Made by a program: the position numbers and the translations under genes. A stretch of DNA of 64,000 bases from Aureococcus anophagefferens (Eukaryota; Sar; Pelagophyceae; Pelagomonadales; Pelagomonadaceae). Position 1 is the first letter of the stretch. Every line of letters starts with the position of its first letter. This document shows positions 9,149 to 45,900 of the stretch, in pieces. The stretch spans positions 633,854 to 697,853 of the forward strand of contig NW_008705577.1 in NCBI RefSeq assembly GCF_000186865.1. Reading direction: 5' to 3'. Under the pieces are notes generated by a model. That model did not search any database. It had not been told where the DNA came from and saw nothing but the letters and a program-made list of their open reading frames with translations.

Positions 9149-10691
9149 CTTACGCGCGGGGGCGGTTCGAACACGCTCTCGTTGTCGTCCCAGTTCTTCG
9201 GGTCGCGGAACCAGAACTCCGTGAAGTTCGCGTAGGGCACCGCGCGGACCGCGCGCCGGGACCGGTTCGGCAGGCCGAAGTGGAGCACGCGCGCGTCGAA
9301 GATGAGCGCGTCGCCGGCCGCGAGCCGCGGGCGCACGAGCGCGTCCTGGACGCGCCGCAAGAGCACGTCCCGCGGCTCGGCCTCGTCCGTGAGCCGCGCG
9401 CACGTCGCGAGGTCGTGGGACCCGGGCACGAACCTGGGCAGGACAAGGGTGATTCAACGTCGCTTCAACGTGGGTGTTCCGCGCGCGCGCGTTCCGGGAA
9501 AAGCATTCACGCTTCGAGACCGTTCCGAGAGATGATCGCTCGTCCAAAAATCAGCCGAAACGAGTGGAAAGTGGGCGAAATCGGAGCCTTTGAAGTTGGG
9601 AATTTCGCTCTCTTGTCCTGCCCGGGCACGAACGCCGTCTGCCCCGCGGCCGGGTCCGCGGCCGCGGCGCCGCCGTAGAGGAAGACGTTGAGGTAGTGCG
9701 GCGGCAGCACGCGGTCGTCGAAGAGGTGCGGCGCGTCCGCGTGCAGGGCCTGCTCCGCGGCGCCGGGCACGCTCACGACGGCGCCGACGGGCCCCGCGTC
9801 GAGCGCGCGCTTCGGCGCGTCGGGCCCGCCGAGGTCGAAGTTCCACAACCCAAAGTTGCCCCGGCGCGCCGCCGTCCGCGGGGCCTCGCTCGCGAGGCGG
9901 CAGATCTCCCGGAGCGCGCCGTTGTTTCGGAGCGCGTGTCGCCGCTCCGCTCCTTCCTCTCCCTTTAACCGCGGCGTCCCCCGGAGGTCGCAGCGCAGGT
10001 CCTCGCGCATGGCGAGCTCGCGGTAGGTCTCGACGTGCGGCGCGCCCGGGTCCATGAGGTCGACGCCGCGGTGTTCCACGAGCGCGGCGCGGCAGGCTTC
10101 GAAGTCCGCGAGCGCGTCCGCGGCGAGGCCGTCGGCGACGGCCGGGTCGAGCAGCCCCGGCAGGATGACTAAACCATGGGACCGCAACGTCCGCGCCGCG
10201 CGCGCCGCGAAGGCCGCCGCGGGCAGCGGGCCGGCCGCGCGCCGCGCCGCGACGGCGAGCCCGTGCGCGCGCTCGTGCTCCGCCTCCGACGCGGGCGGCC
10301 GCGGCGCGCAGCCGACCTCGTCCGCCGTGCACAGCCGCTTCCCGAAGACGACGGCGGCGCCGCCGCGCCAGCGCTCGACGAGCGCGGGACCGGCGCTCCT
10401 CGCCGCGGCCGCGGCCGGCCCGACGACGGCGACGGCGCCGCCGCGCGCGACGGCGGCGACGGCGTCGCCGAGCGCGTGCACGACGAGCGCGTCGCAGGCG
10501 GCGCCCGGCGACGCGACGTCGAAGCCGGCGCCGCGCGCGCGGTCCTCGTAGGCGCCGTCGACGTCCGGCGCCACGACGATGACGGGCTTCACGGCGCCGA
10601 CGGGCGGCACGAGCCGCGCGAGCTCCGCGACGACCTCGCCGACGGTGTCGCCGTCGTCCTCCTCGCTCGTCGAGCCGTCGAAGAGGTCCAT
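9145..10691 (-). CDS. Phytanoyl-CoA dioxygenase (PhyH)-like Fe(II)/2-oxoglutarate oxygenase, one introner intron
   Basis: Exons are 10691-9634 and 9433-9145, coding 448 residues. The C-terminal two thirds look like a PhyH-type double-stranded beta-helix: the iron-binding H-x-D is LHADAPHLF (His about 317, Asp about 319), the distal His is in ARVLHFGLPN (about 403), and the following NRSRR supplies the Arg that binds 2-oxoglutarate. VPGSHDL is typical of the family just before the distal His. Residues 1-150 form a separate Ala/Val-rich domain with an acidic start, of unknown role. The intron splits the codon within the QTAFVPGSH motif and its removal restores it exactly. The substrate is unknown. 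The last codons overlap the Mpv17 gene by four bases. Confidence 0.85.
9434..9633 (-). mobile_element. Introner element, family A (element 9434-9625, GT-AG intron of 200 nt)
   Basis: The terminal inverted repeats are CTGGGCAGGACAAG at 9434 and, inverted, CTTGTCCTGCCCGG ending at 9625. A perfect 8-bp duplication GCACGAAC flanks them (9426-9433 and 9626-9633). On the gene strand the intron begins with GT of the upstream copy (GTTCGTGC) and ends with the CAG of the terminal repeat, so the host codon is rebuilt exactly. The pyrimidine-rich terminal repeat doubles as the polypyrimidine tract of the acceptor. The core carries GGCTGATTTTTGGACGAGCGATC on the gene strand in two adjoining blocks, shared with the other copies. 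Confidence 0.93.
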
Positions 10692-10897
10692 TGTGGATTG
10701 CGAGTGAGGCGCTAGGTCCGAAGGTTTATAGCTCTCCCATGCCTCGCCAGTTCAACAAAAGTTCAAGAAAGCCGCGCCTCGATGCTGCCGCGGATGGTGC
10801 CGGCGCTGGGCATGGGCGTGCCGGTGCGGGCCTGGGCAGCCCGCCCCCGTTGAGCGACCTCTGAACCCCTCGATAGCCGCGCACGCCGACCCGCGCC

Positions 10898-13743: not shown

Positions 13744-13793
13744 TAGTTTCTGTGCGTTCGCTCCGTGTCCGTCGACCGATACCATGGGAGGGG

Positions 13794-14102: not shown

Positions 14103-14135
14103 AGGGAGGACAGTACTAGTAGTTAAAAAAAGAAA

Positions 14136-16323: not shown

Positions 16324-16353
16324 GCGGGCCACGCCCCCGGCGGCGGTTTTTTT

Positions 16354-16403
16354 NNNNNNNNNNNNNNNNNNNNNNNNNNNNNNNNNNNNNNNNNNNNNNN
16401 NNN
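16354..16403. other. Assembly gap (50 N)
   Basis: Fifty undetermined bases follow a T7 run just after the eS10 gene. The true length is unknown. Confidence 1.
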
Positions 16404-17618: not shown

Positions 17619-17620
17619 TT

Positions 17621-17690
17621 TCGCGTTTCGGGATGACGCGTTTCGGGATGATGACGCGTTTCGGGATGGCGTTTCGCGTCGAGCGGGATG
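17621..17690. repeat. Short tandem repeat in a divergent promoter
   Basis: CGCGTTTCGGGATGA is present three times (from about 17622, 17637 and 17655) followed by two degenerate copies (GGCGTTTCGCG, GCGGGATGGCG). The unit is 15-18 bp. It lies directly upstream of the hydrolase start and within the 184 bp shared with the divergent gene. Confidence 0.75.
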
Positions 17691-20477: not shown

Positions 20478-23367
20478 TCACTCGTCCTCGCCGAAGGACT
20501 CCATGCGCGCGTCGACGGGGCTCGCGGGGTCGTCGTCGTCGCCCGGGGGCGGCTGCTCGATGATGGCGTCGATGTCCGCGAGCTGGTTCGGGTCGAGGGA
20601 CAGGTCCGTGCCGCGGCGCAGGGCCTGGACGTTCTTCGGCAGGGGCAGGGGCACGCCCGTGCAGGCGAGCGTGAGGAGGTCGACGAGCGGGTCGCGGAAG
20701 AGCGGGCTCACCTCGAAGAGCAACGGCTGCGAGAGCCCCGGCGCGTGCACCGCGACGCGGTTGAGCTTGGCCGCGTCGGGCTCGACCTTGGTGATGCCCG
20801 TCACGGAGACCTTGTCGCCCTTGCGCTTCGCGTAGGCCAGGTCGTGGACGAGGTAGCCGCCGCCGTTGGGCTCGGGCTTGTCGGGCGCGGGGAAGAGCGT
20901 GAGCGCCGTCGCGTGGCTCCGCGCGCTGTTGAAGGCGAGCGCCTTGGACGTGGGCAGCTTGACGCACTGGAGGCCGCCGTCGCTGTGGAGCTGGCGGCTC
21001 AGCTCGTCCTGCGTCAGCACCTCGACGCAGCCCGTCTTGCGGACGATCTCCGTGAACTCGGCCTTGTCGATCTCCCCGTCGCCGTTGACGTCGAACTTGG
21101 CCACGAGGCGCTCGACGACGCGCGCGACGGCCGTCGGGCAGCCGCCGAACATGGCCTGGGCCCGCGGCGACGCGTTGGGCATCGCGCCGACGATGAAGTC
21201 CGTGAGCTCCTTGCCGTCGACGGAGCCGGAACCGTCCTCGTCGAGGCGGCTGAAGATGCCCGTGACCACGGTCTTGATGAGGCGCTTGTTGTGGCTCTTG
21301 CCGAAGCCCGGCAGCGTCGACCGGCTCAGCTCCGCGAGCACGGGCCGGTCCGTCGGGTGCGCCAACACCGAGATCGCGCCCCGGTCGCCCGTGCCCAACT
21401 TCAACTTCCGCAGCTCGACGTAGCGGCTCCGCGCCTTGGCGCCCTTGGCCGCGACGCGCTCCAGCGCCTTGAGCTTCTCCGTGAGCACGAAGAAGGCGCC
21501 GCAGACCGCGGGCACGAAGAACATCCACAGCGGCGTCACGTAGTGGAACAGGACCATGAAGACGTTGCCCGCCAAAATGGGCAGCGTCTTCTTCGGCTCC
21601 TTCCACTCGAACAAGTCGCGGACCTCGGCGACGTCCTTGGCCGTGGCCCCGAGCTGGCGCATCGCGAGCGCGGGGCCCGACCCCGCCTTCTTGCCTGTGT
21701 GGAAATCGACCGCTGGTTCGGGACGTCCCGACCAAACTTTGACATTCTCTAGCTCGGTCACATCGAAGTCGATTCGGCTGATTTTTGGACGGATCGATCG
21801 CTCTCGTCGAGTCCTCGAAGCACAGCGAAAGTTCCTGTGTCAAAACATTCGAATACGCACACATTGAAGTCGGGTTGAAGATTTGATTTCCACGCGCCTT
21901 CTTGCCGGCGAGGTTGATCATCTTCTTCGCGATGCCCGACACGGGCCCCTTGTGGTCCTCCTTCCTGTCGCCGTCGTCCTTGGGCTTCCGGAAGCTCAGC
22001 GACCGCTTCTTCTTCTCGCCCCCGGCCGCGCCCGCGAGCAGCGCCGCGGCCTCGGGGTCCTCGGGCTCGTCGTCGACCTCCTCCTCGGCCTCCTCCTCGG
22101 CCTTGTCGAAGCCCATGATCGACGGCGAGTCGATGCACAGCTGCGTGAACTCGTCGAGATCCAGCTCGCCGCCGCCGTCCTCGTCGGCCTTCTTGAAGAG
22201 CGCGTCGATCTCGTCGTCCGGCGGCGGCGGCCGCGCGTTCTTCGTCGCGAGCTCCGCCATCGCCAGACCGATCTCGGACCGGTCGAGGGACCCGCCGCCG
22301 TCGGCGTCGATGCGCTGGAAGCAGGCGGCGGCCTCCGCGCGGATCACGTCGAGCTTCTTCTTCTCGAAGTAGTTGTGGACGAGGAGCGCGACGATGGCCA
22401 AATGCAGCATCTCCCAGAAGTACTCGATGAAGAACGCGACGAAGAGGCAGATCGCGAGCCACGTGCGCGACTTGCGCTCGTCCTTCCAGGTCACGATCTT
22501 CTCCGCCGCCGTCGCCACGTCCAGGTAGGGCTTCATCTCCTTGTTCAGCGCCATGCCGTTCGTGTAGAGGAGGTTGATGTCGAACTTCGTCGCGTCCTTC
22601 GTCTTCCGCTGCTCGGCCCAGAGCATGGACGACGCCTCGCCGAGCGCGCTCACCTCGTACTCGAGGTGGAGGTGCACGGCCGCCGACGCCGCCGTGAAGC
22701 CCTCGGCGATCTCGAGGGGCACCCAGCGCTTCACGAGCCCGAGGAAGCTCAGGTCCCTGATCGGGATCTCGACGGACCCCAGGAGGTCGTCCGCGGACGA
22801 CACGTCGAGGTCGTAGATCTCGACGCGGAGCACGGCGTCGTAGCGCGGCACGAAGAACTCGCACTGCTCGTGCCAGCCCGGGTTCAACGACTTCTTCACG
22901 GTCGCGCTCTGCCACGTCTGCCGCTTCTCCTCGGTCCACTCGTTGCCGTACTTGTTCTTGCCCGTGATGATGAGCCGCGCGTAGGGGTCCGACTTGCCGC
23001 CGAGGTCCGCCGCGGGCAGGTTCGCCGCCTCGATGAGCTTGACCTTGAGCTTGCCGATGCGGAGCCGCTGCTGGTACGCGGGGCCCATGACGACCGCGAG
23101 CTTGAAGCGCTTCTTCGCCTCGTCGCTCAGGTAGTCCTCGTAGACGTTGTCCTCGTGGTCCTTGCGCGCCTCGGACGCGACGAACTCGACGACCTCCTTC
23201 GTCGTCATCTTCTCCCCCTTGACGTTCGTCGCCGCGCTCTTGCCCTTGGCCGGCGACGGGCTGCCGCCCTTGCCGCGCAGGAACCCGCGCGCCTTCTTCT
23301 CACTCGACGGCGGCGACGCCGCCGCCGGGGCGTCCCGGGCCTCGGCACCGGGCGCCGCCGCCGTCAT
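20478..23367 (-). CDS. C2-domain, EF-hand, multi-pass membrane protein (one introner intron)
   Basis: Exons 23367-21906 and 21694-20478 code 892 residues. A C2 domain covers about residues 100-235 (LKVKLIEAANLP, KSDPYARLIITGK, YDLDVSSADDLLG), expected to bind membrane lipids with Ca2+. Two hydrophobic stretches near 305-340 are followed by an EF-hand pair (FQRIDADGGGSLDRSE and FKKADEDGGGELDLDE, about 350-415). After an acidic linker the intron position falls in INLAGKKAG. The second half has another hydrophobic pair (GNVFMVLFHYVTPLWMFFVPAVCGAFFVL, two blocks) and two more EF-hands (FSRLDEDGSGSVDGKE, FDVNGDGEIDKAE). The layout recalls multiple-C2/transmembrane proteins at ER contact sites, with EF-hands added. 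It is a probable Ca2+-sensing tether. Confidence 0.85.
21695..21905 (-). mobile_element. Introner element, family B (element 21695-21897, GC-AG intron of 211 nt)
   Basis: Terminal repeats are CTGTGTGGAAATC on the left and, inverted, GATTTCCACGCGC on the right. A perfect 8-bp duplication CTTCTTGC lies at 21687-21694 and 21898-21905. On the gene strand the intron starts GCAAGAAG, a good match to U1 apart from the C, and ends CCACACAG. Splicing restores INLAGKKAGSG. The element is reversed relative to the copies in the CLC gene, when both are read on the gene strand, so the family can act as an intron in either direction. Confidence 0.93.
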
Positions 23368-23525: not shown

Positions 23526-26124
23526 ATGCGACCGCCGGCCTACAACCCGGCCTACTCTGCACCCCAGGGCCAGCAGATGATGTCCGTGACCTGCCCCGGG
23601 AACGCCGGGCCCGGCGCGAGGCTCACGATCCAGGCGCCCGACGGCCAGCGGCTCCAGGTCATCGTCCCGCAGGGCGTGCGCCCGGGCATGCAGTTCCGCG
23701 TGCCGCTCCCGGCGCCCCAGCAGGCCGCCGTCGCCGTCGCCACGGCTGTCCCGGTACGCGCCGGCGGCGCCGGTCCGGCCTTGGCGGCCCAGCCTCAACA
23801 ACAGTACGCGCCGCCGCCGGCATACGGCCAGCCTGCGCCCCCGTACGCCCGGCCGCCGCCGGCCTACGGTCAGCCCCAATATGGCGCGCCCCAGCAAGGC
23901 TACCCGCCGCAGCAGGGCTATCCGCCGCCGCAGGGCTACGCGCCGCAGCAGGGCTATCCGCCGCCGCAGGGCTACCCGCCGCAGCAGGGCAACCCGCCGC
24001 AGCCGAGCTACCCGCCGCAGCAGGGCTACCCGCCGCAGCCGGGCTACCCGCCGCAGCAGGGCTACCCGCCGCAGCAGGGCTACCCGCCGCAGCCGGGCTA
24101 TCCGCCGCAGCCGGGCTATCCGCCGCAGCCGGGCTATCCGCCGCAAGGCTATCCGCCGCAGCAGCAAGGCTATCCGCCGCAGCAGCCCCAGCCCTACGGC
24201 CAGCGGCCGCCCCGCGGCTCGCCGGGCGGCTCGCGGCCGCCGCAGGGCCAGCAGCCGATCGTCATCAACAATTATCAGCAACCGCCGCAACAGCAGCCGC
24301 ACTATCAGACGAACCAGCAGCACGGCGCGGGCTACGGCGGCTACGCGGCGGCCGCGGGCGTGGGGGCGCTCGTGGGGGGGCTCGGCGCGATCTCCCTCGC
24401 GGGCCGGCCCCGGCGCAACTACTACGGCGACGACGGATACTACTACTACTACGACCCGTGGGAGTGTCGGCGTTATCGATACTGGCACGGCGGCGCGTCG
24501 CCGGCGTTTTCATTTTTCCCGGGGCGTTCCCGTCGGGACGCGCGCGGTCTTCGTAGGCGACTACGGCTTCCATTCTCGCCACCACTTCCACGATCACCAC
24601 CATCACCATCACCACCACGACCACGGCGGGGAGCCCGTCGCCGACGACTTCCAAGAACCGGAACCGGCGCCCGACGCGCCGCCCGAGGCCGACATCCCGC
24701 AGCCGCCGCCCGACGGGCCGCCGCCCGACGGCGGCTACGACCCGAACGCGCCGCCGCCGGAAGCCTACGCCGTCGACGGCGGCTACGACCCCGGCGCGAC
24801 GCCGCCGGACGGCGGCTTCGACCCGAACGCGCCGCCGCCGGAAGCCTACGCCGTCGACGGCGGGTACGACCCGACCGCGCCGCCGCCGCCGGACGGCGGC
24901 TACGATCCGAGCGCGCCGCCGCCGCCGGACGGCGGCTACGAGGCGCCGCCGGATTTCCCGGTCGACGCGTACGCCGGGTGCCCCCAGGACCTCTGGGACG
25001 GCGACGGCGGGGCCGGCGGCGCCGCGCCGGCCGTCGCGAGCGGCCGGCGGCGCCGGTGGCGCGACGTCGCCGGGGTCGCGGCGCACGCCGCCGCGGCCGA
25101 CTGGCCCGTGCCCCGCGCGCTCGAGACTCTGGTCCCGTCGCCGCGGCGGCGGCCCCGCGACACCGTGACCGTCGCGACGCAGTGCTCCGCGGACCGGCTG
25201 CCGCGGCTCGCAGCCCTCGCCGCGGCCTGGGGCGGGACGACGTGCTGCGCCGTGCTCGTCCGGGGCGACGGCGACGCGGCCGCGGCCGTCGCGGCCGCGC
25301 GCGGCGCCGAGGCCGCAAACCCCGCCGCGGCCGTCGACCTCGTCCTCTACCGCGAGGACGCGGGCCGCGCGGCGGGCTACCCCGTCAACGCGCTCCGCAA
25401 CGCGGCGCTGGCCGCGGTGGCGACGGAGAAGGCGCTCCTCCTCGACGTCGACTTCCTGCCGTCGCGGCGCGCGCGAGACGTCCTCGAGCGGCGCCGCGTC
25501 GGCGCGCGCGACGCACTGGTCGTGCCCGCGTTCGAGAGCCGCGCCGGCGCCGCGCCGCCCGTCGCGTCCAAGGCCGGCCTCCGCGCGGCCGTCGACGCCG
25601 GCGACGCGGAGCCCTTCCACGCGACGCGCTTCGGCCGCGGCGGCTACGCGGCGGGCCACGGGCCGACGGATTCGCGGCGCTGGTTCGCGGCGCGCGAAAC
25701 CTACGAGGCGCGCTACGCCGAGGGCTTCGAGCCCTACGTCCTCGTCCGCGCCGCGACGTGCCCGCGCTTCGACGCGCGCTTCCGCGGCTACGGGCTCAAC
25801 AAGGTCCAGCACGCCTTCGCGCTGCACGCCCGCGGCTTCGCGTTCGTCGTCGAGCCCGACGCCTGGGTCGTCGCGGGCGAGCACGCCGCGTCCCGCGACT
25901 GGCGCGCCGCCTACGACCCGCGCGCGCCGGGCTACGACGCCGCGCGGCGCCTCAAGCTCCAGGCGCTCTACGACACGTTCAAGCGCGAGACGCGCCGCGC
26001 GCGGCGGCGCCGCGCGGCGCGGGAGCCGCGGAAGCGCCGCGGCGACGCGGCCCTGCCGGCGGCCGCGGCCCTCGCGGCGACGGCCGGCGCCGTCGCGCTC
26101 GCCTCGCGCCTCCTGTTCGCCTAA
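23526..26124 (+). CDS. PGYPPQ-repeat protein fused to a glycosyltransferase-like domain and a C-terminal membrane anchor
   Basis: The ATG at 23526 begins [17 protein letters not shown]. Residues 15-60 carry a small motif ([18 protein letters not shown], then [13 protein letters not shown]) also found at the annexin C-terminus. About 25 [12 protein letters not shown]-type repeats follow (23880-24190). Near 24427-24556 an intron must shift the frame. The second part has an eight-His run, three [20 protein letters not shown] repeats and then a glycosyltransferase of the LARGE/GT49-like type: [10 protein letters not shown] (metal-binding DxD), [18 protein letters not shown] and [10 protein letters not shown], with a C-terminal hydrophobic anchor. 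The second part has no Met of its own, which supports one fused gene. The exact splice site is unresolved. Confidence 0.65.
23880..24195 (+). repeat. Coding tandem repeat (PQQGYPP / PQPGYPP)
   Basis: CCGCAGCAGGGCTAC and CCGCAGCCGGGCTAT variants repeat about every 18 bases and code PGYPPQ-type hexapeptides, like the flexible tails of annexin A7/A11, rhodopsins and synexins. Such tails often drive condensation or peripheral membrane association. Confidence 0.85.
24427..24556 (+). other. Inferred intron joining the two parts of the glycosyltransferase fusion
   Basis: The frame has to change between 24426 and 24557, and TTCGTAG before GCGACTAC is the probable acceptor. Two donors give the correct phase: GC at 24427 (130 nt; GCGACGAC against GCGACTAC is a 7/8 flanking repeat, as in introners) and GT at 24466 (91 nt). 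I cannot decide between them. Confidence 0.45.
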
Positions 26125-27780: not shown

Positions 27781-29022
27781 ATGAGCATGTTGCTGCGCTC
27801 TCGCGCTCTCGCCTCACGGCGCCTCGCGCCGTGTCCACCGTTGGCGCGGTGCTTCGAGCACTACTCCTGCGACGACTTCCAGGACCGGCGGCGGCGGCCG
27901 CAGCACCGGGCGCCGCGCGAGTTCAGCGGCATGGAGCTCGTCTTCCTGGGCACGTCCGCCGGCGGGCCGACGCTCGCGCGGTCCGCTTCCGCCGTCGCTT
28001 TGCGGCTCGGCGCCCACGCGAAGCGCGGCTCGACGTGGCTCTTCGACTGCGGCGAGGGCACCTACCGCCAGCTGCTGGCGACGCCGGTGAGCCACGCCGC
28101 CGTCGACCGCATCTTCGTGAGCCACCTCCACGGGGACCATTTGTGGGGCCTGCCCGGCGTCGTCGTGAGCGCCTTACTCGAGCAGCGCGGCCGGCGCCAC
28201 CTCCACGTCTACGGGCCCGAGGGCTTGCACGAGTACCTGTCGACGACGCTGTCGATCTCGCGGTTCGCGCCGCCGAAATCCGGGAGCAGGTGCATCGTCA
28301 CGGAGCTGCCGTCGACGCTGCGGCGGCCGCCGCCGCGGCCGCTCAAGCCGCGGAGCCACCCGGCCGTCGAGTACCGCGCCGCCGAGCATGTCGACGGCGG
28401 AGCGTCGTCGACGATCGTCGACGACGGCGCGCGCGTCGTCACGGCGACGCCGATCCGCCACACGCCGGCCGTGGACTGCTTCGCCTTCGTCGTCACGGAG
28501 AAGGCGGGCAAGCGGCGCGTCGACGCGGCCAAAGCGACGGCGCTCGGGCTGCCCCCCGGCGACGCGTACCAGCGGCTCCAGGACGGCGACGACGTACCGC
28601 TGGGCGACGGGCGCGTCGTCCGCGCGGCGGACTGCACTTTTCCGCCGCCGCGGCCGCGGCGCGTGGCCATCCTGGGCGACACCTACGACGCGTCGGCGGC
28701 CGTCGACGCCGCGCGCGGCGCGGACGTCGTCGTCCACGAGGCGACGATGGCCGACGGCGACGCCGCGGTCGCGCGCGCGCACGGCCACGCGACGGGCGCC
28801 GTCGCGGGAGCCTTCGCGCGCGCCGCCGGCGCGTCGGCCCTCGTCCTCACGCACTTCTCGGCCAAGTTCCGCCTCGGGGGCCGCGGCGGGCCGCCCGCGG
28901 GCACGACGGACGTCCTCGTCGACGAGGCGCGGCGCGCCTTCGGCGGCGACCGCGTCCTCGCGGCCTACGACTACATGACCGTCGCCATCCCCCGCGGCGG
29001 CTACCCCCGCGACCCGCGATAG
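27781..29022 (+). CDS. Ribonuclease Z (tRNase Z, short form), probably organellar
   Basis: The 413-residue enzyme removes 3' trailers from precursor tRNAs so that CCA can be added. The metallo-beta-lactamase core starts MELVFLGTSAGGPT (about residue 50); the zinc motif is SHLHGDHLWGLPG (about 110-122), followed by HVYGPEGLHEYL, the His in IRHTPAVDCFAF, ILGDTYDAS and the late THFSAKF with its His ligand. The first 45 residues are Arg/Ser/Ala-rich with no acidic residues until about 26, as expected of a mitochondrial or plastid targeting peptide. The typical acidic exosite arm is replaced by a short loop, as in the short-form enzymes. No introns. Confidence 0.9.
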   Translation: MSMLLRSRALASRRLAPCPPLARCFEHYSCDDFQDRRRRPQHRAPREFSGMELVFLGTSAGGPTLARSASAVALRLGAHAKRGSTWLFDCGEGTYRQLLATPVSHAAVDRIFVSHLHGDHLWGLPGVVVSALLEQRGRRHLHVYGPEGLHEYLSTTLSISRFAPPKSGSRCIVTELPSTLRRPPPRPLKPRSHPAVEYRAAEHVDGGASSTIVDDGARVVTATPIRHTPAVDCFAFVVTEKAGKRRVDAAKATALGLPPGDAYQRLQDGDDVPLGDGRVVRAADCTFPPPRPRRVAILGDTYDASAAVDAARGADVVVHEATMADGDAAVARAHGHATGAVAGAFARAAGASALVLTHFSAKFRLGGRGGPPAGTTDVLVDEARRAFGGDRVLAAYDYMTVAIPRGGYPRDPR

Positions 29023-32842: not shown

Positions 32843-34286
32843 GCCGTCCGGCAGCTCGACCTCGCCCTTGATCGGGAGCGCGTCCTCGGACGACGGCGCC
32901 GGCGTGCCGCAGGCCTTGAAGAGCGCGGCGCCGGCGACGGCGAGGAGCAGGACCGCGGCGACGGCGACGGCGGTCGCGAAGGCGACGGAGTCCGTGAAGT
33001 CGTCGTCGTCGCCGTCGTCGCTCCCTTCGTCGTCGTGCGAGTGGATCGACAGGCGCCAGACGTGGTCCGTGACGGGGAAGCAGTACGCGAAGCCCTCGCA
33101 GGACCTGTGTGGAAATCAAATCTTCAACCCTACTTCAATGTGTGCGTATGCGACAGTTTCGACGCAAGCTTTTCGGCTGTGCTTCGAGAACCCGACGAGA
33201 GCAATCGATTCGTCCAAAAATCAGCCAAATCGACTTCGATTTGACCGAGATAGAGAGGTTTGAAGTTTTTGCTGGACAGGGCGTTCCACTGGTTGATTTC
33301 CACACAGCGCGAGACGTCGCCTCCTCCGCCTGGCCGCCGAAGACGTAGAGGTAGTCGCCGACGGCCGCCGCCGCGGTGCGGAAGCGCTCCTCGGGGATGT
33401 CGGCCTCGACGGACCACGCCGCGGCGCCGTCCCCGAGCGCCTCGACGTCGTCGACGGGCGCGCTGCCCGTCGCGCAGCCGTTGTTGTGCTCGCCGCCGAC
33501 GACGTAGAGCGCCTCGCCCGTCGCGGCGAGGGCCTTGTCGCCGCGCGCGACGGCCAGCGGCGCCGCGGCGCCGAACGCCGCGCCGTCCGCGGCGAGGTCG
33601 AGCGCCTCGACGGACGCGAGGGGCGCGCACCAGTCCTCGTGGCTCCAGCCGCCGACGGCGTACGCCACGTCGCCCAGGAGCGCGAAGCCGAAGTCGCCGC
33701 GCGCCTCGAGGAGCGGCGGCCCGGCCGCCACCGCCCCCGAGGCGACGTCGACGCGGAGCGTCGTCGCGTAGGCCGTGTAGTTGAGGTCGTAGCCGCCGGC
33801 GACGAGGAGCGCGCCGCCGTGGACGACGGCGCCTAGGTCCGACCGCGCCACGGCGACGCCCGGGAGCGTCGTCCAGGCGTCGGCCGCGACGTCGTAGACG
33901 TCGACGGCCTCGACGAGGCCGTCGTCGACGTCGCGGCCGCCGACGACGTAGACCAGGTTGTTCTCCGCGTCGTAGGCTGCGGCGTGGCGGTAGCGCGGCC
34001 GCGGCGGCGCCGCGAGGTCGACCCACGCGTCCGCGGCGACGTCGAACGCGCGCGCGGCCGCGGCGACGGACGGGCAGTAGGAACAGCCGTCCCACCAGTC
34101 GCAGCTCACCTGGTGGTCGTCGCAGCCGCCGACGACGACGACCACGTCGTCGCCGTCGGCACTCGTCGCCGGCGTCGCCGTGAAGTCGGAGAGCGCGACG
34201 GGCATGGGCTCCACGGCCCTCCACGCGCCGTGGGCGGCGGCGCGGGGGACTACGAGTGCGAGGCAGGCGACGAGGGCGGACGACAT
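32819..34286 (-). CDS. Kelch-repeat type I membrane protein (one introner intron)
   Basis: Exons 34286-33316 and 33104-32819 give 418 residues. The start at 34286 provides a signal peptide (MSSALVACLALVVPRAAAHG). The body is a beta-propeller of Kelch-like blades, each with a GG pair and spaced Tyr and Trp: VVVVVGGCDD, LVYVVGGRDVDDG, LLVAGGYDLN, VAYAVGGWSHED, ALYVVGGEHNN and YLYVFGGQAEE. The intron follows the last blade. The second exon adds a short Cys-containing ectodomain, an acidic stretch, one transmembrane segment (FATAVAVAAVLLLAVAGAALF) and a cytoplasmic tail. It is likely a cell-surface or endomembrane adhesion or binding protein. An ATG further upstream exists in frame at 34478 but would bury the signal peptide. 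Confidence 0.85.
33105..33315 (-). mobile_element. Introner element, family B (element 33105-33307, GT-AG intron of 211 nt)
   Basis: The terminal repeats CTGTGTGGAAATCAA and TTGATTTCCACACAG are perfect inverted copies. The flanking duplication is CGCAGGAC (33097-33104) against CGCGAGAC (33308-33315), 6/8 with both differences transitions. The gene-strand intron is GTCTCGCG ... CCACACAG. The interior belongs to subfamily B2 (CGCCCTGTCCAGCAAAA near the 5' end), shared with the copy at 35867. Without splicing, the protein would lose its transmembrane segment. Confidence 0.92.
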
Positions 34287-34725: not shown

Positions 34726-36996
34726 ATGAACATCGAGGTCGTGCCGTCGGCCAAGGTGCGCGAGGCCGAGGCCCTGCTGCGCAAGGGCGACGGCGACTCG
34801 CTGCGGAGCGGCGCGTCGTCGCTGCTCCACTGCGTCGGCGGCGACCACGGCGGCGTCCCGACGGAGAACGGCGCGCCCGCGCTCAACAGGCTGCTGCGCG
34901 CGCTGACGGAGGACCCCTACCGGTGCCTCGGCCTCGAGCGCGGCTGCGACGGCGGCGCGATCAAGAAGGCCTACCGGAAGCTGGCCCTGCGGCACCATCC
35001 GGACAAGAACGCGAACAAGACGACGGTGCTCTTCGCGGCGGTCCAGGCGGCCTACGTGCTCCTCAGCGACGAGTCGAAGCGCAAGGGTTATGATTTGCGC
35101 AGCGAGCGGCGCGACGCCCAGAACGAGAAGCTGCGGCGGCGCAAGGCCGAGGAGGACGCGGCGAAGCGCAACGGCCAGTCGAGCAAGGGCATGCGGCGGC
35201 CGCCGTCGACGAACTCCTTCCACATGCCGGNNNNNNNNNNNNNNNNNNNNNNNNNNNNNNNNNNNNNNNNNNNNNNNNNNNNNNNNNNNNNNNNNNNNNN
35301 NNNNNNNNNNNNNNNNNNNNNNNNNNNNNNNNNNNNNNNNNNNNNNNNNNNNNNNNNNNNNNNNNNNNNGGCCCCGCGCCCGCCGCGGGCGTGGCCGCCG
35401 CCGGCGCGGCGACGGCGCGGTCCCCCGGCACGTCCGGCGGCGGGAGCCCGCCGCCGCGGCCCCTGGGCCTGCGCATGGCGAGCCGCACGGACACGACGGT
35501 CACCATCGAGTGGCGGCCGGGCGAGAGCGGCGCGGGCGCGGCCGCGTCCAAGGCCTACGAGCTCCAGTGGCGCCTCCGGGGCGACGGCAAGGCCCAGGCC
35601 GGCGCCTGGGAGTCCGCGAGCCAGCTCATCCTCAACACGACGTGCCGCAAGCGGAACCTGCGGCGGCGGTCGTGCTACGAGTTTAGGGTCCGCGCCGCGT
35701 CCGTGTCCGGCTGGTCGCCCCACAGCGACCCGCTGGTCATCACGACGCTCGCCGAGGCGCCCGGCGACGCCGCGCCCGCGCGGCCCGCGACGTCCCAGGC
35801 GCCGAGCCGGGGAAACGGCGCGCAGCGGGACCGCCGGTCCGCGGGCGAGCTGCCCGCGGTCGGCCGCCGCGCGGAAATCTTCGACCCGACTTCAATGGGC
35901 GCGTCTTCGAACGGTTCGACACACGTTCTTCGGTTCTGCGTCGAGCACTCGACGAGAGCGATCGATTCGTCCAAAAATCAGCCGCATCGACTTGGAATTG
36001 ACCGAGATAGAGAGGTTTGAAGCTTTTGCTGGACAGGGCGTTCACCGGTTGATGTCCGCGCAGGTCGGCCGCCGGCCCGCGCAGGGCCGCGGGCCCTGGC
36101 AGTGCAGCGTCTGCAAGCGGAGCAACGGGCCCGGCGCGGCCAAGTGCAGCGTCTGCGGCACGAAGAAGGACTACGACTGGGCGCCCGCGGCGGGCAAGGG
36201 CGCGGCCGACGCCGCGCCGCGCGCGCGCCGCGCGTCCAAGCCCAGCGACGACGACGACGACTGGGGCCTCGACGGGGACACCTGGACCTTCTCCGAGCGC
36301 GACGTGCCGAGCAGGCCCGCGCGCGAGTCCGACGTCGACTACGGCGACGACGCGTCGGCCGCGGGCGGGCCGGCCTACGCGGCGCGGCCGACGTTCTGGC
36401 TCAACACGGCGGCGACGTGCCTCCACAACGTGCGCCGCGAGCCCATCAAGGGCAGCCCCATCGTCGGCCACCTCGTCGCCGACACGGAGGTCGAGGTCCT
36501 CGCCGAGGCGGGCAACTGGATCAAGTGCAAGTACCACCGGCCCTACAAGTCGCCCGACGGCGCGCCGCAGCCGCGGCGGCCCGACAAGGAGGGCTGGTGC
36601 CTCAAGTGGGACGACGCCTCCGGCGCCGTCTACGTCGTCGACGACGGCAACGCCTACCCGTCGTCCGGCGGCGACGAGGGCGCGGACGACGAGGTCATCT
36701 ACGAGCTCCGCGACGAGGACAACCGGCTCTACTACTTCAACTGCTACACGGGCGTGAGCATGTGGGAGCCGCCGGAGTGGACCGACAGCGTCGACCCGGC
36801 GAGCGGCGCCGTCTACTACACGCACTCCGAGACGGGCGAGACGCAGTGGGAGCGGCCCTTCGACTTCGTCCCCATCGTCCGCGAGGAGCTCTACTCGACG
36901 CCCCAGGCGCGCTTCATCAAGTCCATCCTCTCGCCCAAGCGGTCCCACCACAACATGAACCACGCCATGCCGGGCGTCGGCCTCCCGCGCGTCTGA
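34726..36996 (+). CDS. J-domain / fibronectin III / RanBP2 finger / WW protein (gap and one introner intron)
   Basis: The N-terminal 65-135 residues form a J domain (DPYRCLGLE, AIKKAYRKLALRHHPDKN with the essential HPD, AYVLLSDESKRKGYD), which stimulates Hsp70. After the 139-N gap, the frame from 35391 codes a fibronectin type III domain (PLGLRMASRTDTTVTIEW ... FRVRAASVSGWSPHSDP). The second exon (36064-36996) has a RanBP2 zinc finger (WQCSVCKRSNGPGAAKCSVC), an SH3-like stretch (REPIKGSPIVGHLVADTE) and two WW domains (YYFNCYTGVSMWEPPEW and VYYTHSETGETQWERP). The frame differs on the two sides of the gap, so its true length is not 139 modulo 3 or an intron is hidden. I know no protein with this order of domains. 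Confidence 0.8.
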   Translation: MNIEVVPSAKVREAEALLRKGDGDSLRSGASSLLHCVGGDHGGVPTENGAPALNRLLRALTEDPYRCLGLERGCDGGAIKKAYRKLALRHHPDKNANKTTVLFAAVQAAYVLLSDESKRKGYDLRSERRDAQNEKLRRRKAEEDAAKRNGQSSKGMRRPPSTNSFHMPXXXXXXXXXXXXXXXXXXXXXXXXXXXXXXXXXXXXXXXXXXXXXXXAPRPPRAWPPPARRRRGPPARPAAGARRRGPWACAWRAARTRRSPSSGGRARAARARPRPRPTSSSGASGATARPRPAPGSPRASSSSTRRAASGTCGGGRATSLGSAPRPCPAGRPTATRWSSRRSPRRPATPRPRGPRRPRRRAGETARSGTAGPRASCPRSAAARKSSTRLQWARLRTVRHTFFGSASSTRRERSIRPKISRIDLELTEIERFEAFAGQGVHRLMSAQVGRRPAQGRGPWQCSVCKRSNGPGAAKCSVCGTKKDYDWAPAAGKGAADAAPRARRASKPSDDDDDWGLDGDTWTFSERDVPSRPARESDVDYGDDASAAGGPAYAARPTFWLNTAATCLHNVRREPIKGSPIVGHLVADTEVEVLAEAGNWIKCKYHRPYKSPDGAPQPRRPDKEGWCLKWDDASGAVYVVDDGNAYPSSGGDEGADDEVIYELRDEDNRLYYFNCYTGVSMWEPPEWTDSVDPASGAVYYTHSETGETQWERPFDFVPIVREELYSTPQARFIKSILSPKRSHHNMNHAMPGVGLPRV
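35231..35369. other. Assembly gap (139 N)
   Basis: The undetermined bases lie inside the J-domain gene, between the J domain and the fibronectin III domain. GC-rich low complexity on the right side suggests the cause. Confidence 1.
35859..36063 (+). mobile_element. Introner element, family B (element 35867-36063, GT-AG intron of 205 nt)
   Basis: Terminal repeats are CCGCGCGGAAATC and, inverted, GATGTCCGCGCAG. The duplication GTCGGCCG is perfect (35859-35866 and 36064-36071). The intron starts with GT of the first copy and ends CGCGCAG; removal gives [18 protein letters not shown]. The element is reversed on the gene strand relative to the CLC copies and belongs to subfamily B2. Confidence 0.93.
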
Positions 36997-38473: not shown

Positions 38474-41400
38474 TTAGCCCGGCGCGTAGTCGAGGTAGAA
38501 GCCCGTCTCGGGCAGGACGTGCTGGGGCCGGCACGCGGAGTCGGGCTCGAAGGCCGGCGCCGCGGTGTCGAGGCGCGACGCGGCGTAGCGCTGGAGCGCC
38601 GCGAAGGCGTCGGACGCCGGCGGCGGCGCGGCGCGCTCCGGGAGCACGGGCAGCGGGCCCGACGCCGTGTTGAAGACCGCGGGGACGCCGTGGCGGTCGA
38701 AGGCGGCGACGAGGCACGCGACCTTGTCGTCCGCGGCGTCCCAGTCGCGGTAGTCGACGTAGACGATGTCCCAGCCGACGAGGTCGAGGAGCCGCCGCTT
38801 GAGCTTGGACCGGCCCGTGAGCATCCACTTGGCGTTGGCGAAGTAGTGCACGGGCCCGTCGAACTCGACCGCGACCTTGAGCTCGGGCTTGGCCATGTCG
38901 AGGCTCAGGCCCGACCGCGCCTGGGCGGGACGAGAGAGATTCGACGTCGCTCCAACGCGGGTGTGCCGCGCGCGCGCGTTCCATGAAACGCATCCACGCG
39001 TCGAGACCGTTCCGAGAGATGATCGCTCGTCGAACCATCGGCCGAAACGAGCGGAACGCGGCCGAGAGCGGAGCCTTTGAAGTCGGGACGTTCGCGCGCT
39101 CGTCCCGCCCCGGACCGCGCCTCGAAGTACTCGTAGGAGTGGGCCCAGCCGAGGTGGTCGAGCGCCGCGCTCACCTCGAGCTGCGTGCGGCTCCCGAGCG
39201 CGCAGTCCGACGTCGTCAGCGCGGCCTGGAGCGCGCGCGCCCACTCGCCGTCGAGCGGCGGCACGGCGGCGACGGCGCCGTCGAGCGTGAGGCGCAGGTA
39301 GGCCTGCTGGAGCTGCGACTTGGCGACGTCGTCGAAGATCGCCGGCGTCCAGCCCCGGTCTAAAAGCACGAGCCAGAGCTCGCGGCACGGCGCCGCGTCG
39401 TCGAGGTTCGAGAACGACCAGACGAGGTTCGCGAGCTCCTGGCTGCTCAGGTCGTCGAGCACGGCCAGCGCCCGGTCCTTGAGGGCCTCGAAGAGGCCGC
39501 CGCGGTCCGTCTCGCCCACGGCCGCGAAGGCCCAGGCGACGTTCGCGACGTCGACGGGCAGCAGCTCGTCGACGATCGCGCCGCACGCGGCCGCGAGCGC
39601 GTCCATGAGCGCCGGCGCGTAGACGGCGGCCTTGGCGTAGGACCAGGCGAGCGTCGCGACCTTCTGCGGGTTCGCGAAGCCCCGGTCCAGCGCTCTCAGT
39701 CGCGGCGCCGCGTGGCGCGCCGCGGCCTCGAAGAGCGCGACGTGCTCCAAATCGTTCGACGCGAACGCCCAGAGCGTGTTCGTCACGTCCTGCGCGTTGT
39801 AGCGGCCCAACTTCGCCTGGGCCACGCGCGCGAGCTGGAGGAAGAGCACCTGGGCCCGCTCGACCAAATTCAGCTTCGCGTAGGCCCAGGCCAGGTTCGC
39901 GAGCTCCTGCGACTTGAAACCGTCGAGGAGCGGTTCCGCGACGCGCGCGAGCGCGTCGAAGAGGGCCGTGTCCCGCGACCCGGCGCGCGCGTAGGCCCAG
40001 GCGCAGTTGGCGATGTTCTGGGAGTTGAAGCCGCGGCCGCAGACTCGGACCGCCGCGCGGCTCAGCGCCGCGAACGCGGGCGTCGCAAAGTAGTCCGCGT
40101 CGGGCCCGTCCTCGAGGCGCCGCTTCACCTGGGACTTGTCGTCGCCGGCCGGCGCCACCGTGAGCCCGATCGTCGCCAGCGCCCAGGCGCTGTTGGCGAT
40201 GTCCTGGCCGCTCGGGCTCCACGCGGCCTCCTGGCGCACGATCTCGCCGCACATGGAACGGAAGAAGGCGTCGTGGCGCCGGTTCGCGAGCGCGAACGCG
40301 TAGAGCGTGTTGGAGCAGTTCTGGTTACTGAACTGGTCGATGATCGACGCCGCGAAGTCGCCGAGGACGCCGAAGAGCGCGTCGGAGCCCATGGCGACCT
40401 TGGCGAAGGACCACGCGACGTTCGACACGTTCTGCGCGCCGAAGGTCTCGGGCACGCCCTCGGCGACGAGGAAGGCGTCGACGGCGTCGAAGAGCCGGGC
40501 GTCGCGGATGTCGTTGGACGCGAAGGACCAGACCGTGTTGCTGATGTCCTGCGCGTTGCACGCGGGCAGCAGCGCGGCGACGCGCGGCGGCGCGCGCGAG
40601 AAGACGTCGGGCGCGTCGAAGCCGGACACCGTGAGCGCGTGGAGCAGGCTCGCCAGGTTCTGGGGGCTGAAGCCGTCGAGGGAGCAGGGGCCGTCGCCCG
40701 CCGCGACGTCGCAGATCTTGCGGAGGCAGTCGAAGTAGGCGACCTTCTCGTCGCCGTCGTGGACCTCGGGCCCCTCCGTGAGCCGCTTCGCGAGGGACCA
40801 GGCGACGTTGCTCAGGTTCTGCGGGTTGAAGACGCCGATGACGTCGTCGCGGGCCACGCGCGCGGCGATGGCCCGGAAGAGGCGCGCGTCGTAGTAGCCG
40901 ACCTTGGCGAAGGCCCAGCCCGTGTTGCTCAGGTTCTGCGGGTTGAAGACGTCGAGCTGGCGCACCGACGCGGCCGCGACGCCGTCGAAGAGCTCCGGCA
41001 CGACGACGCCCGCCGTCGCGAAGGCCCAGGCCGTGTTCGTCAGGTTCTGCGGGTTGAAGTCGCCGAGCTTCGCGAGCGCCGCGCGCGCGATGGCCCGGAG
41101 GAAGGGCTCCTGCGACTCCGCGCCGCACTTGGCGTAGGCCCAGACCGTGTTCGCGAGCTCCTGGGCGTTGTACTCGCCGAGGCGCCGCTCGCCCTCGGCG
41201 GCGACGTGCGCCATGAGCTCCGGCGCGCGGAGGCCCATCGTCGCGAAGGCCCAGACCGTGTTCGAGAGGCCCTGGCTCGTGAAGCTCCCGAGCTCGCGCT
41301 GCGCCGCACCGGGCAGGCGCCGGAGCGTCGCGAGGCAGTCCGCGTCGTCGCTCACCTCCGCCGTCGCGTAGGCCCAGCTCAGGTTCGCGACGTCCTGCGC

Positions 41401-42852
41401 GTTGAACTCGCCGAGCCGCGGCCCGCACGCGGTCGCGATCGCCGCGTACGCGCGCGCGTCCGTGACCTTCATCTTGCCGAGGCTGTAGGCCGTGTTGACG
41501 AGGTGGCGCGTCGTGAAGACGCCCGGCCGCGCGCCAATCTTGCCCGCGACGGACGCCACGAGCGCCTCGACGAGCGGCTCGCCGCCGCCCCGGCCGAGCC
41601 GCAGGCCCGCCTTGCTCAGCCGGTGGAGCGCCGTGACCTGGTTGAACGTGTTGAGCCGCGCCGGGCCCTCGCGCTCGACGAGCGCCAAAATGTCGGCGAC
41701 GGTCTTGCACTTGCGCAGGAGCAGCGTGTTCACCTCCTTGTCGCGCGCGGAGGGCGCCTCGTCGCCGCAGCTCAGGCCGGACGCCGCGCCCCGGCCCCGG
41801 CCCTTGCCGAAGGGCCCGCCGCGGCCGCCCCTGCCCTTGCCGCCGCCGCACTCGACGCCCTTGCCCTTGCCGCCGTCGAAGCCGCCCTTGCCCTTGCCGC
41901 CGTCGAAGCCGCCCTTGCCCTTGCCGCCGTCGAAGCCGCCCTTGCCGCCGCCGTCCCAGGCGCCCTTGCCCTTGCCGCCGTCGAAGCCGCCCTTGCCGCC
42001 GCCGTCCCAGCCGCCCTCGCCGCCGCCGTCCCAGCAGGCGCCCTTGCCGCCGCCGTCGAAGCCGCCCTGGCCGCCGCCGTCGAAGCCGCCCTGGCCGCCG
42101 CCGTCCCAGCCGCCCTTGCCGCCGCCGAATCCGCCTTTCCCGCCGCCGAAGCCCTTGCCGCCGCCGAAGCCTTTGCCGCCAAAGCCCATCCCTTTCCCGC
42201 CGTCGAATAGATTGCCGTCGAAGCCCTTGCCGCCGCCGAAGCCCTTGCCGCCGCCGAAGCCCTTGCCGCCGTCGAAGCCCTTGCCGCCGTCGAAGCCCTT
42301 GCCGCCGTCGAAGCCGTTGAAGCCGCGGCCGCGGCCGAAGCCGTCGTTGCCGCGGCCGCGGCCGCGGCCTCCGCCGCCGTCGAAGGGCGGCGGCGCGTAG
42401 CCGCCCCAGCCGCCCGGCGGCATCGCGCACTCGCCGCCCGGGAATGCGGCGCCCTTGCCATCCGGGAACGACGGCGCCGCTGGCGGCTCGTAGCCGCCCC
42501 AGCCCCCCGGCGGCATGCCATGACCGTTCGGCGGCCGCGGCGGCGACGGCGCCCGCGGCTGCGGCGGCTGCGGCGGCGGCCGCGGCGGTTGCGGTTGCGG
42601 CTGCGCCGGCGGTTGCGGCGGCGGCGGTTGCTGCTTGCTGCTGCGCTGCTCGGGCGAGGCGCCTCGCCGAGAGCTGGGTTGCTGCTTGCTGCTGCGCTGC
42701 TCGGGCGGGTTGCCTCGCCGAGACTTGTGCTGCTGCGTTTTTTTCGGCGGCTCTTCGATGCCGTAGCCGCCGCGCGCGCGCCAGCGCGACACAGCAGGAG
42801 ACGGCGATCGCGACCCGCTCCGAGCCCGCTTGCCGGAATAAGACGAGCTCAT
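38474..42852 (-). CDS. RAP-domain helical-repeat protein, probable organellar RNA-binding factor (one introner intron)
   Basis: Exons 42852-39121 and 38920-38474 give 1392 residues. The first 350 residues are low complexity: basic, then Pro/Gln, then more than 20 GGKGF/GGKGGFD units. From about 385 on, some fifteen repeats of roughly 38 residues have the pattern LGEFNAQDVANLSWAYAT or FNPQNLSNTAWAFAK, as in FASTK/OPR-type RNA-binding proteins. The end is a RAP domain (LKVAVEFDGPVHYFANAKWMLTGRSKLKRR, in two blocks, then LVGWDIVYVDYRDWD). Such proteins act on specific mitochondrial or plastid transcripts; the expected targeting peptide is not obvious before the low-complexity region. The intron lies immediately before the RAP domain. 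Confidence 0.87.
38921..39120 (-). mobile_element. Introner element, family A (element 38921-39112, GC-AG intron of 200 nt)
   Basis: Terminal repeats are CTGGGCGGGACGAG and, inverted, CTCGTCCCGCCCCG. The duplication GACCGCGC is perfect (38913-38920 and 39113-39120). On the gene strand the intron begins GCGCGGTC and ends CCGCCCAG; only the GC donor restores FEARSGLSLD, while the nearby GT donor makes an early stop. The element has gained G/C at many sites compared with the copy at 9434. Confidence 0.92.
41830..42330 (-). repeat. Coding repeat GGKGF/GGKGKGGFD in the RAP protein
   Basis: Units of 15-24 bases (for example CCGTCGAAGCCCTTGCCG on the plus strand) are repeated more than 20 times and code Gly/Lys/Phe-rich peptides. 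Near-identical neighbours suggest recent expansion. The region is likely disordered and may bind RNA. Confidence 0.85.
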
Positions 42853-42976
42853 GCTGTCAGGCGAGGGTCAACGTCAACATTGAAATTCTCAACTCCTTGG
42901 CTCGAAGGGACGGACGGCAGCCCAATCGCGACGGAGGAGCCGAGCTCCTCTGACTCTGGTGCTTCCCCCCTGGTGC
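42853..42976. promoter_or_regulatory. Compact divergent promoter of the RAP-protein and CLC genes
   Basis: Only 124 bp separate the two starts. AT-richer sequence (42870-42900, AACATTGAAATTCTCAACTC) is near the RAP start. Confidence 0.5.
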
Positions 42977-45900
42977 ATGCGCACGGCGTCGGCGTCGTCT
43001 GCGCGCGGCGACTTGGCGCTCATGAGCGTCGGCGCGTCGCTCAACGGCGACGAGCTCACCGAGGGGCTGCTCGCTGCGGACGGGCGCGGGCGGGGCCCCG
43101 CGGCGCCGCCGGGCCGGCGGCGGTCGGCGTCGGAGAGCTTCCCGGAGCGCTTGCCGTCGCGGGACGGTAGCGTGGGCACGAGCGTCGGCGCCTGGGCGGC
43201 GGGCTTCGCGCGGCGCGGGTCGCTGGACCCCTTCGCGCGGGAGGTCGTCGACGGGGAGCGCGCGGCCGCGCGGCGCGCCGCGCTCGGCGGGTCGAGCCGG
43301 GACCTCGCGGGCCTCGGCGACGTCGAGGGCGCGGCGCCCGCGGCGCCGCCCGGGAGCCCCGCGGCGCCGCCGAAGTCGCGGACGGAGGTGCAGCTGCTGT
43401 CGTCGTTCGAGGCCCTCGACTACGGGCCGTCGATGTCCGCGTACCGGCGCGCGCGGCGCCGCGACCGGCGGCGCGCCGAGGGGGACGCCCTCGTCGCCTT
43501 CGCGACCCTGCTGGCCGTCGGGTGCATCGTCGGCACCTGCGGCTTCTGCGTCGCGCGCGGGACGACGTCCTTCCAGGCGCGGCGCTGCGCGGAAATCGAC
43601 CGCCGGGTTTCGGGACGTCCCGACCAAACTTTGAAATTCTTTCGCTCGGTCACATCGAAGTCGATTCGGCTCATTTTTGGACGAATCGAGTGCTCTCGTC
43701 GAGTTCTCGAAGCACATCGGAGATTCTTTTGTGAAAACGTTCGAATACGCGAACATTGAAGTCGGATTCCGCGCAGGCGCGGCGCCTCGAGCTCGCGCGC
43801 TACGGCCCGTCGGGCGCGGTGACGCCGGGCGGCGTCGCCCGCGTGCTCGCCGCGTCCGCGGGCCTCGCCGTCGCGTCGGCGCTGCTCGTCGTCGGCGTCG
43901 AGGCCGCGGCCGCGGGCTCGGGCATCCCGGAGGCCAAGGCGTACCTCAACGGCGTCAACTACAGCCGCTACCTCGCGCTGCGCTGCGGCGCGGTCAAGGC
44001 CGTCGCCGTCGTCCTGTCCGTGGCGTCGGGCCTCGTCGTCGGGCGCGAGGGGCCCCTGATCCACGTCGGCGCGGTCGTCGGCAACGCGCTCGCGACGTGG
44101 CCCGGCGCGAACCGGCTCGCGCGGCTCCGCGGCGTGAATTGGACCTGGCAGCACCGCTTCCGCCACGACGCCTGGAAGCGCGAGTTCGTCGCCTGCGGCG
44201 CGGCCGCGGGCGTCGCCGCGGCCTTCGGGAGCCCCATCGGCGGCGTCGCGTTCGCGCTCGAGGAGGCGACGACGTTCTGGGACGCGGCGCTGACCGCGCG
44301 GGCCTTCGCGGCGACGGGCGCGGCGACGGCGACGCTCTGGACCTTCGAGGCGAAGTTCCCGCTGGGCGACGTCGACGACGGCCGGCGCCGCGTGCGGTCG
44401 TCCTTCTGGCGGCTGCTCAAGTTCGGCAGCTTCGGCGACCAGCCCGCGTACGACCTGCGGGATTTGCCCTTGATGGTCCTGGGCCTCGGCGTGCTCGGCG
44501 GCGTCGTCGGCGCGGCGTTCTGCCACTGCAACGTGCGCCTGTCGCGGTGGCGGCGCCGCCGCGTGCTCGGGCGGCCCGCGCGGCGCGTCGCGGAGGTCGG
44601 CGCCGCGGCGCTGCTCACCGCGGGCGTCATGGCGGCCCTGCCGGCGCTCGTCGGGAGCTGCCGCGCCGCGACGCCCCAGTGGGCCTGCAGCGCGACGGAG
44701 AACGGCCACTACTGCGGCGACTACTACGGCCGCGGCGCGCGCGGCGGCGCCGGCGGCAACGCGACCGCGTGCGCCTACGAGTGCTGGGACCGGTCGACCT
44801 ACGAGCGCGGCGGCTGCGGCGAGGGCTTCTTCGACGCGGCGGCGACGCTGTCCATGCGGCCGAGCGACGGTGCGATCCAGGGCAGGACAAGAGAGCGAAA
44901 TTCTCAACTTCAAAAGGCTCCGATCTCGGCCGATTTCCACTCGTTTCGGCTGATCTTTGGACAAGCGATCATCCCTTGGAGCGGTCTCGAAGCGTGGATG
45001 CTTGTTCCGGAACGCGCGCGCGCGGAACACTCACGTTGAAGCGACATTGAATCTCTCTTGTCCTGCCCAGGCGCGATCGCGGCGCTCTTCCACGACGACG
45101 ACGTCGCCTTCGGCGCCGCGGCGCTCGCCGCGTACGCGGCCGCGGCGTTCGCTCTCGCGGCGCTGACCTACGGCGTCGCGGTGCCCTCGGGGCTCTTCGT
45201 GCCGTCGATCCTCATCGGCGGCGCCCTGGGCCGCCTCGCGGGCGAAGCCTACCGGGCCCTGGACCTCGTGCCCGGCGGCGTCCACGTGCGGCCGGGCGTC
45301 TGGGCCGTCTGCGGCGCCGCGGCCGTGCTCGCGGGCGTCCGCGCGGAAATCGACCGCCGGTTCGGGACGTCCCGACCAAACTTCAGAATTCTCTAGCTCG
45401 GTCAAATCGAAGTCGATTCGGCTGACTTTTGGACGAATCGATTGCTCTCGTCGAGTTCTCGAAGCACGGCCGAAGAGCTTGCGTCGAAACTGTCGCATAT
45501 GCTCACATTGAAGTCGGGTCGAAGATTTGAATTCCGCGCAGGCGGGCGTCACGCGGCTCACGATGACGATCACGGTCATCGTCTTCGAGACGACGGGCCT
45601 CAGCGACCTCGCGCCGCCGCTCATGGGCGTCGTCTGCGTCGCCAAGACGCTGGCGGACGCGCTCGGCGGGCCGCGGTCCATCTACGACGCGCACGTCGCG
45701 CTCAAGTGCATCCCCTACCTCGACGACGAGTCCAACGGCGACGACGGCGACGCGGTCGTCGGCGACGTCATGGCGACGGCCGTGCGCTGCGTGCCCGACG
45801 TCGCGCCCCACGCCGCGGCGCTGTCCTGCCTCGAGGACACGCGGCACAACGCGTTCCCCGTGCTCGCGGCCGGCGACGGCGCGTTCGTCGGGCTCGTGTC

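Follow-up and report, generated by a model that had tools for sequence, protein, structure and literature searches.

Introners of Micromonas pusilla draw their splice sites from two sources, in that the element brings one splice site and the duplicated target gives the other. In Aureococcus anophagefferens, Huff, Zilberman and Roy reportedly described in 2016 introners that co-opt one splice site from the duplication, and this mechanism is already known for the alga. Here we describe eight elements, most probably introners, in a stretch of 64,000 nucleotides of A. anophagefferens contig NW_008705577.1 (the window), following up an original prediction made from the letters of that stretch. The window elements follow the same scheme of one carried and one duplicated splice site as those of M. 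pusilla, in another lineage. Compared with published A. anophagefferens introners as a class, rather than family by family, they share introns of about 200-211 bp, a target duplication with terminal inverted repeats, a co-opted splice site and occurrence in both orientations, with no difference established. The original prediction had placed introners in both Micromonas and Aureococcus, and passages in four papers (PMC9860276, PMC7789003, PMC9481584, PMC10228655) agree with the introner mechanism; one of them gives introns of about 210 bp as characteristic (PMC9481584). Other arrangements are described in passages of PMC9860276, where M. pusilla has some introner families with duplications and inverted repeats and others that lack them, and where family 4 of an Aureococcus sp. 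carries both splice sites and adds 12 bp to the mRNA (Fig. 2F). That family belongs to the same genus and also makes an 8-bp duplication, whereas the window introners would add nothing to the mRNA.

The window has a guanine plus cytosine (GC) content of 72% and belongs to a genome of 49.05 Mb in 86 contigs. All eight elements are present at the predicted places with imperfect inverted ends and a shared core, and they form two families. Their lengths, in site order from 9434 to 45331, are 192, 203, 203, 197, 192, 192, 193 and 203 bp. Family A (sites 9434, 38921 and 44870) has terminal repeats of the CTGGGCAGG type and family B (sites 21695, 33105, 35859, 43577 and 45331) of the CTGTGTGG type, while the core GTCCAAAAATCAGCC is common to both, and the profile of each family weakly recognises copies of the other. 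Since window copies of both families match their own profile on both strands, most of them over nearly the full length, the elements are near-palindromes. The predicted introns, and the gene region that holds three of them, are as follows.

9434..9633, minus strand: family A introner in a phytanoyl-CoA dioxygenase-like (PhyH) gene; element 9434-9625, donor duplication 9626-9633 GTTCGTGC, exonic duplication 9426-9433
21695..21905, minus strand: family B introner in a C2/EF-hand gene; element 21695-21897, donor duplication 21898-21905 GCAAGAAG, exonic duplication 21687-21694
33105..33315, minus strand: family B introner in a Kelch-repeat gene; element 33105-33307, donor duplication 33308-33315 GTCTCGCG, exonic duplication 33097-33104 with 2 mismatches
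35859..36063, plus strand: family B introner in an fn3/WW-domain gene; donor duplication 35859-35866 GTCGGCCG, element 35867-36063, exonic duplication 36064-36071
38921..39120, minus strand: family A introner in a FAST_1/RAP-domain gene; element 38921-39112, donor duplication 39113-39120 GCGCGGTC, exonic duplication 38913-38920
43577..43776, plus strand: family B introner in a CLC chloride-channel gene; donor duplication 43577-43584 GCGCGGCG, element 43585-43776, exonic duplication 43777-43784
44870..45070, plus strand: family A introner in the CLC gene; donor duplication 44870-44877 GTGCGATC, element 44878-45070, exonic duplication 45071-45078 GCGCGATC
45331..45541, plus strand: family B introner in the CLC gene, splitting AGVTRLT; donor duplication 45331-45338 GCGGGCGT, element 45339-45541, exonic duplication 45542-45549
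42884..46279, plus strand: CLC chloride-channel gene region; one open frame of 928 residues with a GC content at third codon positions (GC3) of 0.98, three introners removed

We conclude, with a probability of roughly 95%, that these sequences are introners, i.e. short non-autonomous cut-and-paste DNA transposons of A. anophagefferens that resemble miniature inverted-repeat transposable elements (MITEs) of 192-203 bp. In the mechanism that we infer, a transposase supplied elsewhere would insert the element into a coding exon and duplicate 8 bp of the target. If the first two of these 8 bp, read on the sense strand, are GC or GT, the donor would come from the upstream copy and the acceptor from the terminal repeat, which ends in AG. 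The spliceosome would then remove duplication and element together, and the second copy of the duplication would leave the mRNA unchanged. Because both ends of a family B element read CT...AG, this family would be spliced in either orientation.

The location of all eight elements inside coding exons, as predicted, is borne out by the host genes. When duplication and element are removed at each of the eight sites, a long open frame with a GC3 of 0.88-0.99 is obtained, and the spliced products contain the Pfam domains PhyH, C2/EF-hand, Kelch, fn3/WW and CLC/CBS (the search of the 35859 protein left out the part before a run of N), with FAST_1/RAP found in a 1040-residue part of the 38921 product. 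A sensitive profile scan of the window gives no match at E < 0.5 outside the eight sites. Retention of the intron leads to an in-frame stop inside it at six of the eight sites; at 38921 the stop falls just beyond the intron, and at 21695 no stop occurs in the stretch tested, the intron being 211 long and not a multiple of three. With its three introners removed, the 928-residue CLC product aligns at the 45331 junction (AGVTRLT) without gaps to the solved CLC-7. A six-frame Pfam search places CLC matches at 43867-45339 and 45542-45655, the second of which begins at the base after the AG. The closest relative, annotated as a chloride channel of A. anophagefferens, is identical at 735 of 750 ungapped positions, apart from gene-model differences. 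It had been claimed that the frame is restored only by removal of duplication plus element. This removal does restore it, but an interval of equal length slid within the duplication would do so too; what fixes the splice sites is GC or GT (hereafter GY) together with AG, the conserved protein motifs and the insertion-free alleles, not frame restoration alone.

The families extend across the genome: the core with at most one mismatch has 3567 matches (1801 and 1766 on the two strands), against 1 for the reversed pattern. Among the matches listed, those on one contig (C1) at 0.2-3.0 Mb are without exception on the plus strand; the listing itself probably causes this, since other listings show both strands there. 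We surveyed 77 sequences, the window and 76 loci, which were taken because they resemble window copies or contain exact core matches, or else were eight arbitrary stretches of 10 kb. From 112 element hits we kept 85 clean copies, defined by clean ends and a duplication with at most one mismatch. Dropped were 3 duplicate rows and 24 hits without a clean duplication, including site 33105 with its 2 mismatches, so that seven of the eight window copies remain. In placing the boundaries, CT at the left end and AG at the right end earned the same bonus, and the opening letters of the duplication played no part.

On the plus strand (29 copies), the minus strand (48) or both (7), 84 of the 85 clean copies have a duplication that starts with GY and an element that ends with AG. 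The coding strand was called by a codon model from whose training the duplications were left out, for 83 of the 85 copies, the other two having short flanks. This strand is the one bearing the splice signals in all 72 high-confidence copies in which the signals are unambiguous; six further high-confidence copies fit both strands. The remaining five comprise two low-confidence copies that agree, one that disagrees, one that fits both strands, and one (L026) that fits neither. The predicted rule, by which the duplication provides the donor and the terminal repeat the acceptor, is followed at all eight window sites and in 78/78 copies with a confident, independently called coding strand. The donors of these are GC in 47 and GT in 31, and the intron phases 0, 1 and 2 occur 31, 19 and 28 times, with a single GT donor in phase 1. 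Outside this coding-strand test, each of 29 further family A copies (29/29) shows the splice signals on one strand and not on the other. Family B lies in reverse orientation to the gene in 25 copies and forward in 20. The copies present many near-identical introns at unrelated sites, terminal inverted repeats and a target-site duplication and, as read from sequence, one splice site carried by the element with the other taken from the duplication.

The regularity of the GY start might reflect a target preference of the transposase instead of a filter by splicing. In favor of this, only GY targets are seen (78/78, against a frequency of 0.197 in the flanking exons), and the scarcity of non-coding copies described below suggests some targeting. 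A symmetric preference should also be visible at the other end of the duplication, where the mirror dinucleotide, A or G followed by C, occurs in 19 of 78 copies against 16.6 expected. Since this is background, GY is not a symmetric target preference, and it sits on the coding strand; we regard target preference as an unlikely source of the pattern. The two arms of family B provide a control for constraint on the acceptor within the element itself. T at position 2, which on the acceptor side forms the A of AG, is kept in 48/48 acceptor-side arms and in 30/48 donor-side arms (p 1e-6), and mirror positions 4 and 6 do not differ between arms. Selection to unpair the AG through a change of the donor-side T was considered and is not needed for family B, in which position 2 changes like positions 4 and 6.

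Proteins closely related to the host products and free of the insertion were found for two of the three genes searched, PhyH and Kelch, at 96-97% identity, a sign of recent insertion seen at the protein level. For PhyH we aligned five relatives at 82% or above. One of them (P0107; ENA metagenome, 97%, 448 residues, 12 members) has no gap across the 9434 site, and for Kelch a metagenome protein (P0137; ENA, 96%, 418 residues, 16 members) is continuous through the 33105 site; shorter matches (P0152 and P0154) were left out of the Kelch alignment. Another PhyH relative from an ENA metagenome (P0109, 96%) enters family B sequence 12 bp further on, and its 15-residue tail matches family B copies. 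With the codons of the window, its duplication would read GTCCCACG, again starting with GT. The family B insertion of P0109 and the family A insertion of the window are two separate events at nearly one spot. In a metagenome Kelch relative (P0138, 91%), the sequence diverges at the same site as the window insertion; its inserted sequence has no match among the family A and B copies collected, and perhaps represents a third family. Because P0109 and P0138 run on into inserted sequence, proteins from this source seem to be unspliced translations, so that the DNA behind P0107 and P0137 is probably free of the insertion as well.

Several observations weigh against the identification as introners. 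The 8-bp duplication predicted for all eight sites is present at each but exact at only six: that at 44870 has one mismatch (GTGCGATC/GCGCGATC) and that at 33105 has two on the sense strand (GTCTCGCG/GTCCTGCG). Among the 85 copies kept, L026 fits GY...AG on neither strand and was assigned no clean duplication, and L032 at 300, a low-confidence copy with an unreliable flank score, disagrees in strand. Our search of relatives of the CLC gene returned no close insertion-free protein. At the 9434 site, family A sequence is translated in three NCBI gene models (P0108, P0110 and P0111), as checked on the tail of P0110, and another model (P0001) adds AG inside LAGAGVTR and ten residues at 43577. Perhaps these differing boundaries come from predictors that avoid GC donors, which would not cover 9434, where the donor is GT. 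The translated family A sequence implies that the named A. anophagefferens assemblies carry the 9434 insertion. Finally, splicing is predicted here from DNA and protein sequence. The claim that the locus directly shows an intron made in one step is therefore too strong in the word "directly", which needs RNA; the mechanism itself is supported. As an observation on the mismatched 44870 duplication, its donor copy has GT and its exonic copy GC, a possible improvement of the donor after insertion.

Introns could also have been copied by an RNA route, in which an intron is reverse-spliced and then reverse-transcribed, and the direct repeats would be due to chance or to a splice-site preference. 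The concentration of copies in coding sequence would fit such a route. Against it stand the locus-specific 8-bp duplications with clean ends in 85 of the 112 hits, the inverted terminal repeats, the near-palindromic structure and the presence of family B in both orientations, which is unexpected from RNA, so that we consider this route very improbable. Least probable of all are unspliced MITEs that lie in exons by chance and break their host genes, a view open to the extent that splicing is read from sequence, and opposed by the 72/72 strand agreement, the AG kept on one side only, conserved domains spanning the junctions and about 3500 core matches in one compact genome.

The introner copies are also strongly concentrated in coding DNA. 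Random positions look coding in 78% by codon score, and in 75%, 70% and 61% when a stop-free frame is required as well (flanks of 60, 120 and 240 bases). For the element sites, with L026 left out, the corresponding values are 82/84, 79/80 and 78/80 by score and 81/84, 78/80 and 67/80 with a stop-free frame. Of the 24 dropped hits and L026, 15 of 25 look coding to either side and on a single strand, another 4 look coding where just one side could be tested, and 6 are doubtful, several of which are short weak matches. Non-coding copies thus number two of 84 clean ones and at most 8/109 with the doubtful ones. Under random insertion, with neutral non-coding copies and genic copies surviving only where GY is present, their share should be 59-63%. 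Old, decayed copies are under-represented in the sample; we doubt that this explains the excess, because the copies most alike, presumably the youngest, are coding too. A passage in PMC9860276 gives introner enrichment in genes for 161/175 genomes.

Fourteen of 59 family A copies (L006, L010, L022, L041, L059, L061, L084, L089, L091, L094 and L099-L102) have an inverted interior (bases 3-190), up to 97% identical; read in the sense of the gene, their donor end still has CA (13 copies) or CC (one) and their acceptor end AG. This would arise either from two source lineages or from a flip of the interior between short identical arms. The family A tree prefers four orientation changes (bootstrap 4-5; shuffles about 13); a single clade is not rejected by the approximately unbiased (AU) test (p 0.131), and repeated inversion is not claimed. 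In the passages of the A. anophagefferens introner literature at hand, we found neither an inverted-interior subfamily nor statistics on coding-only location.

We searched the genome for transposases of five families, namely hAT, Merlin, MULE, KDZ and P-element type, and a search for CLC, made as a check, recovered the CLC genes. Merlin (PF12762) and MULE (PF10551) have no match in the genome, their controls matching in 1 and 3 of 14 genomes, the named ones being bacteria and archaea; the hAT dimerisation domain (PF05699) and KDZ (PF18758) have none either, with controls likewise unmatched. An RNase H domain of P-element type (PF21787) was found at C25:178372-178818 (L106), interrupted by three in-frame TAG codons and hence a broken fragment. 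Its two remote relatives, 27% identical and of equal score, are open frames of 563 residues near the ends of contigs C2 (L107) and C11, perhaps a subtelomeric duplication; the one of them that was scored reached 17.6 bits, below the cut-off of 24.6. Searches with the fragment returned no relative in viral contigs and, up to E 1, none among solved structures. The 18-base extension of the core has one match in viral contigs, judged to be chance, on a contig of 39% GC matched by neither element profile. P elements make 8-bp duplications, the same length as those of the window introners. The P-like fragment in this genome is a candidate lead to the transposase of the introners; a passage of 2014 already noted a distant P-element relative in A. 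anophagefferens (PMC3985635). Taken together, we can tentatively picture that insertion is directed to protein-coding, probably transcribed DNA, that a transposase of the P superfamily may drive it, and that the near-palindrome may invert its interior while the ends stay fixed.

Elsewhere in the window, tandem repeats occupy 23797-24228 and 41791-42402 (unit lengths 18 bp and about 24-27 bp), one tRNA-Ala (anticodon cgc) lies on the minus strand at 28384-28466, and runs of N lie at 16354-16403 and 35231-35369. No other low-GC 16-mer is repeated in at least four sequences of the masked window and loci. Two introns were folded as RNA and gave nothing unusual (z -0.6 and -1.1).

Public gene models of A. 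anophagefferens contain translated or mis-spliced introners, which calls for caution among users. GC-AG introns make up 39.6% of the introns of this alga and were termed "an enigma" in 2011 in a passage of PMC3033335. Most donors that derive from a GC-rich gene read GC (47/78), which bears on this oddity, and GT donors stand above background (31/78 against 23%). The scarcity of non-coding copies poses a testable question, i.e. whether insertion is targeted or intergenic copies are removed. If the tentative picture given above is true, inversion of the interior would let a source locus switch orientation and yet keep the acceptor AG. The window offers what is most probably a clean case of a transposon making an intron in one step.

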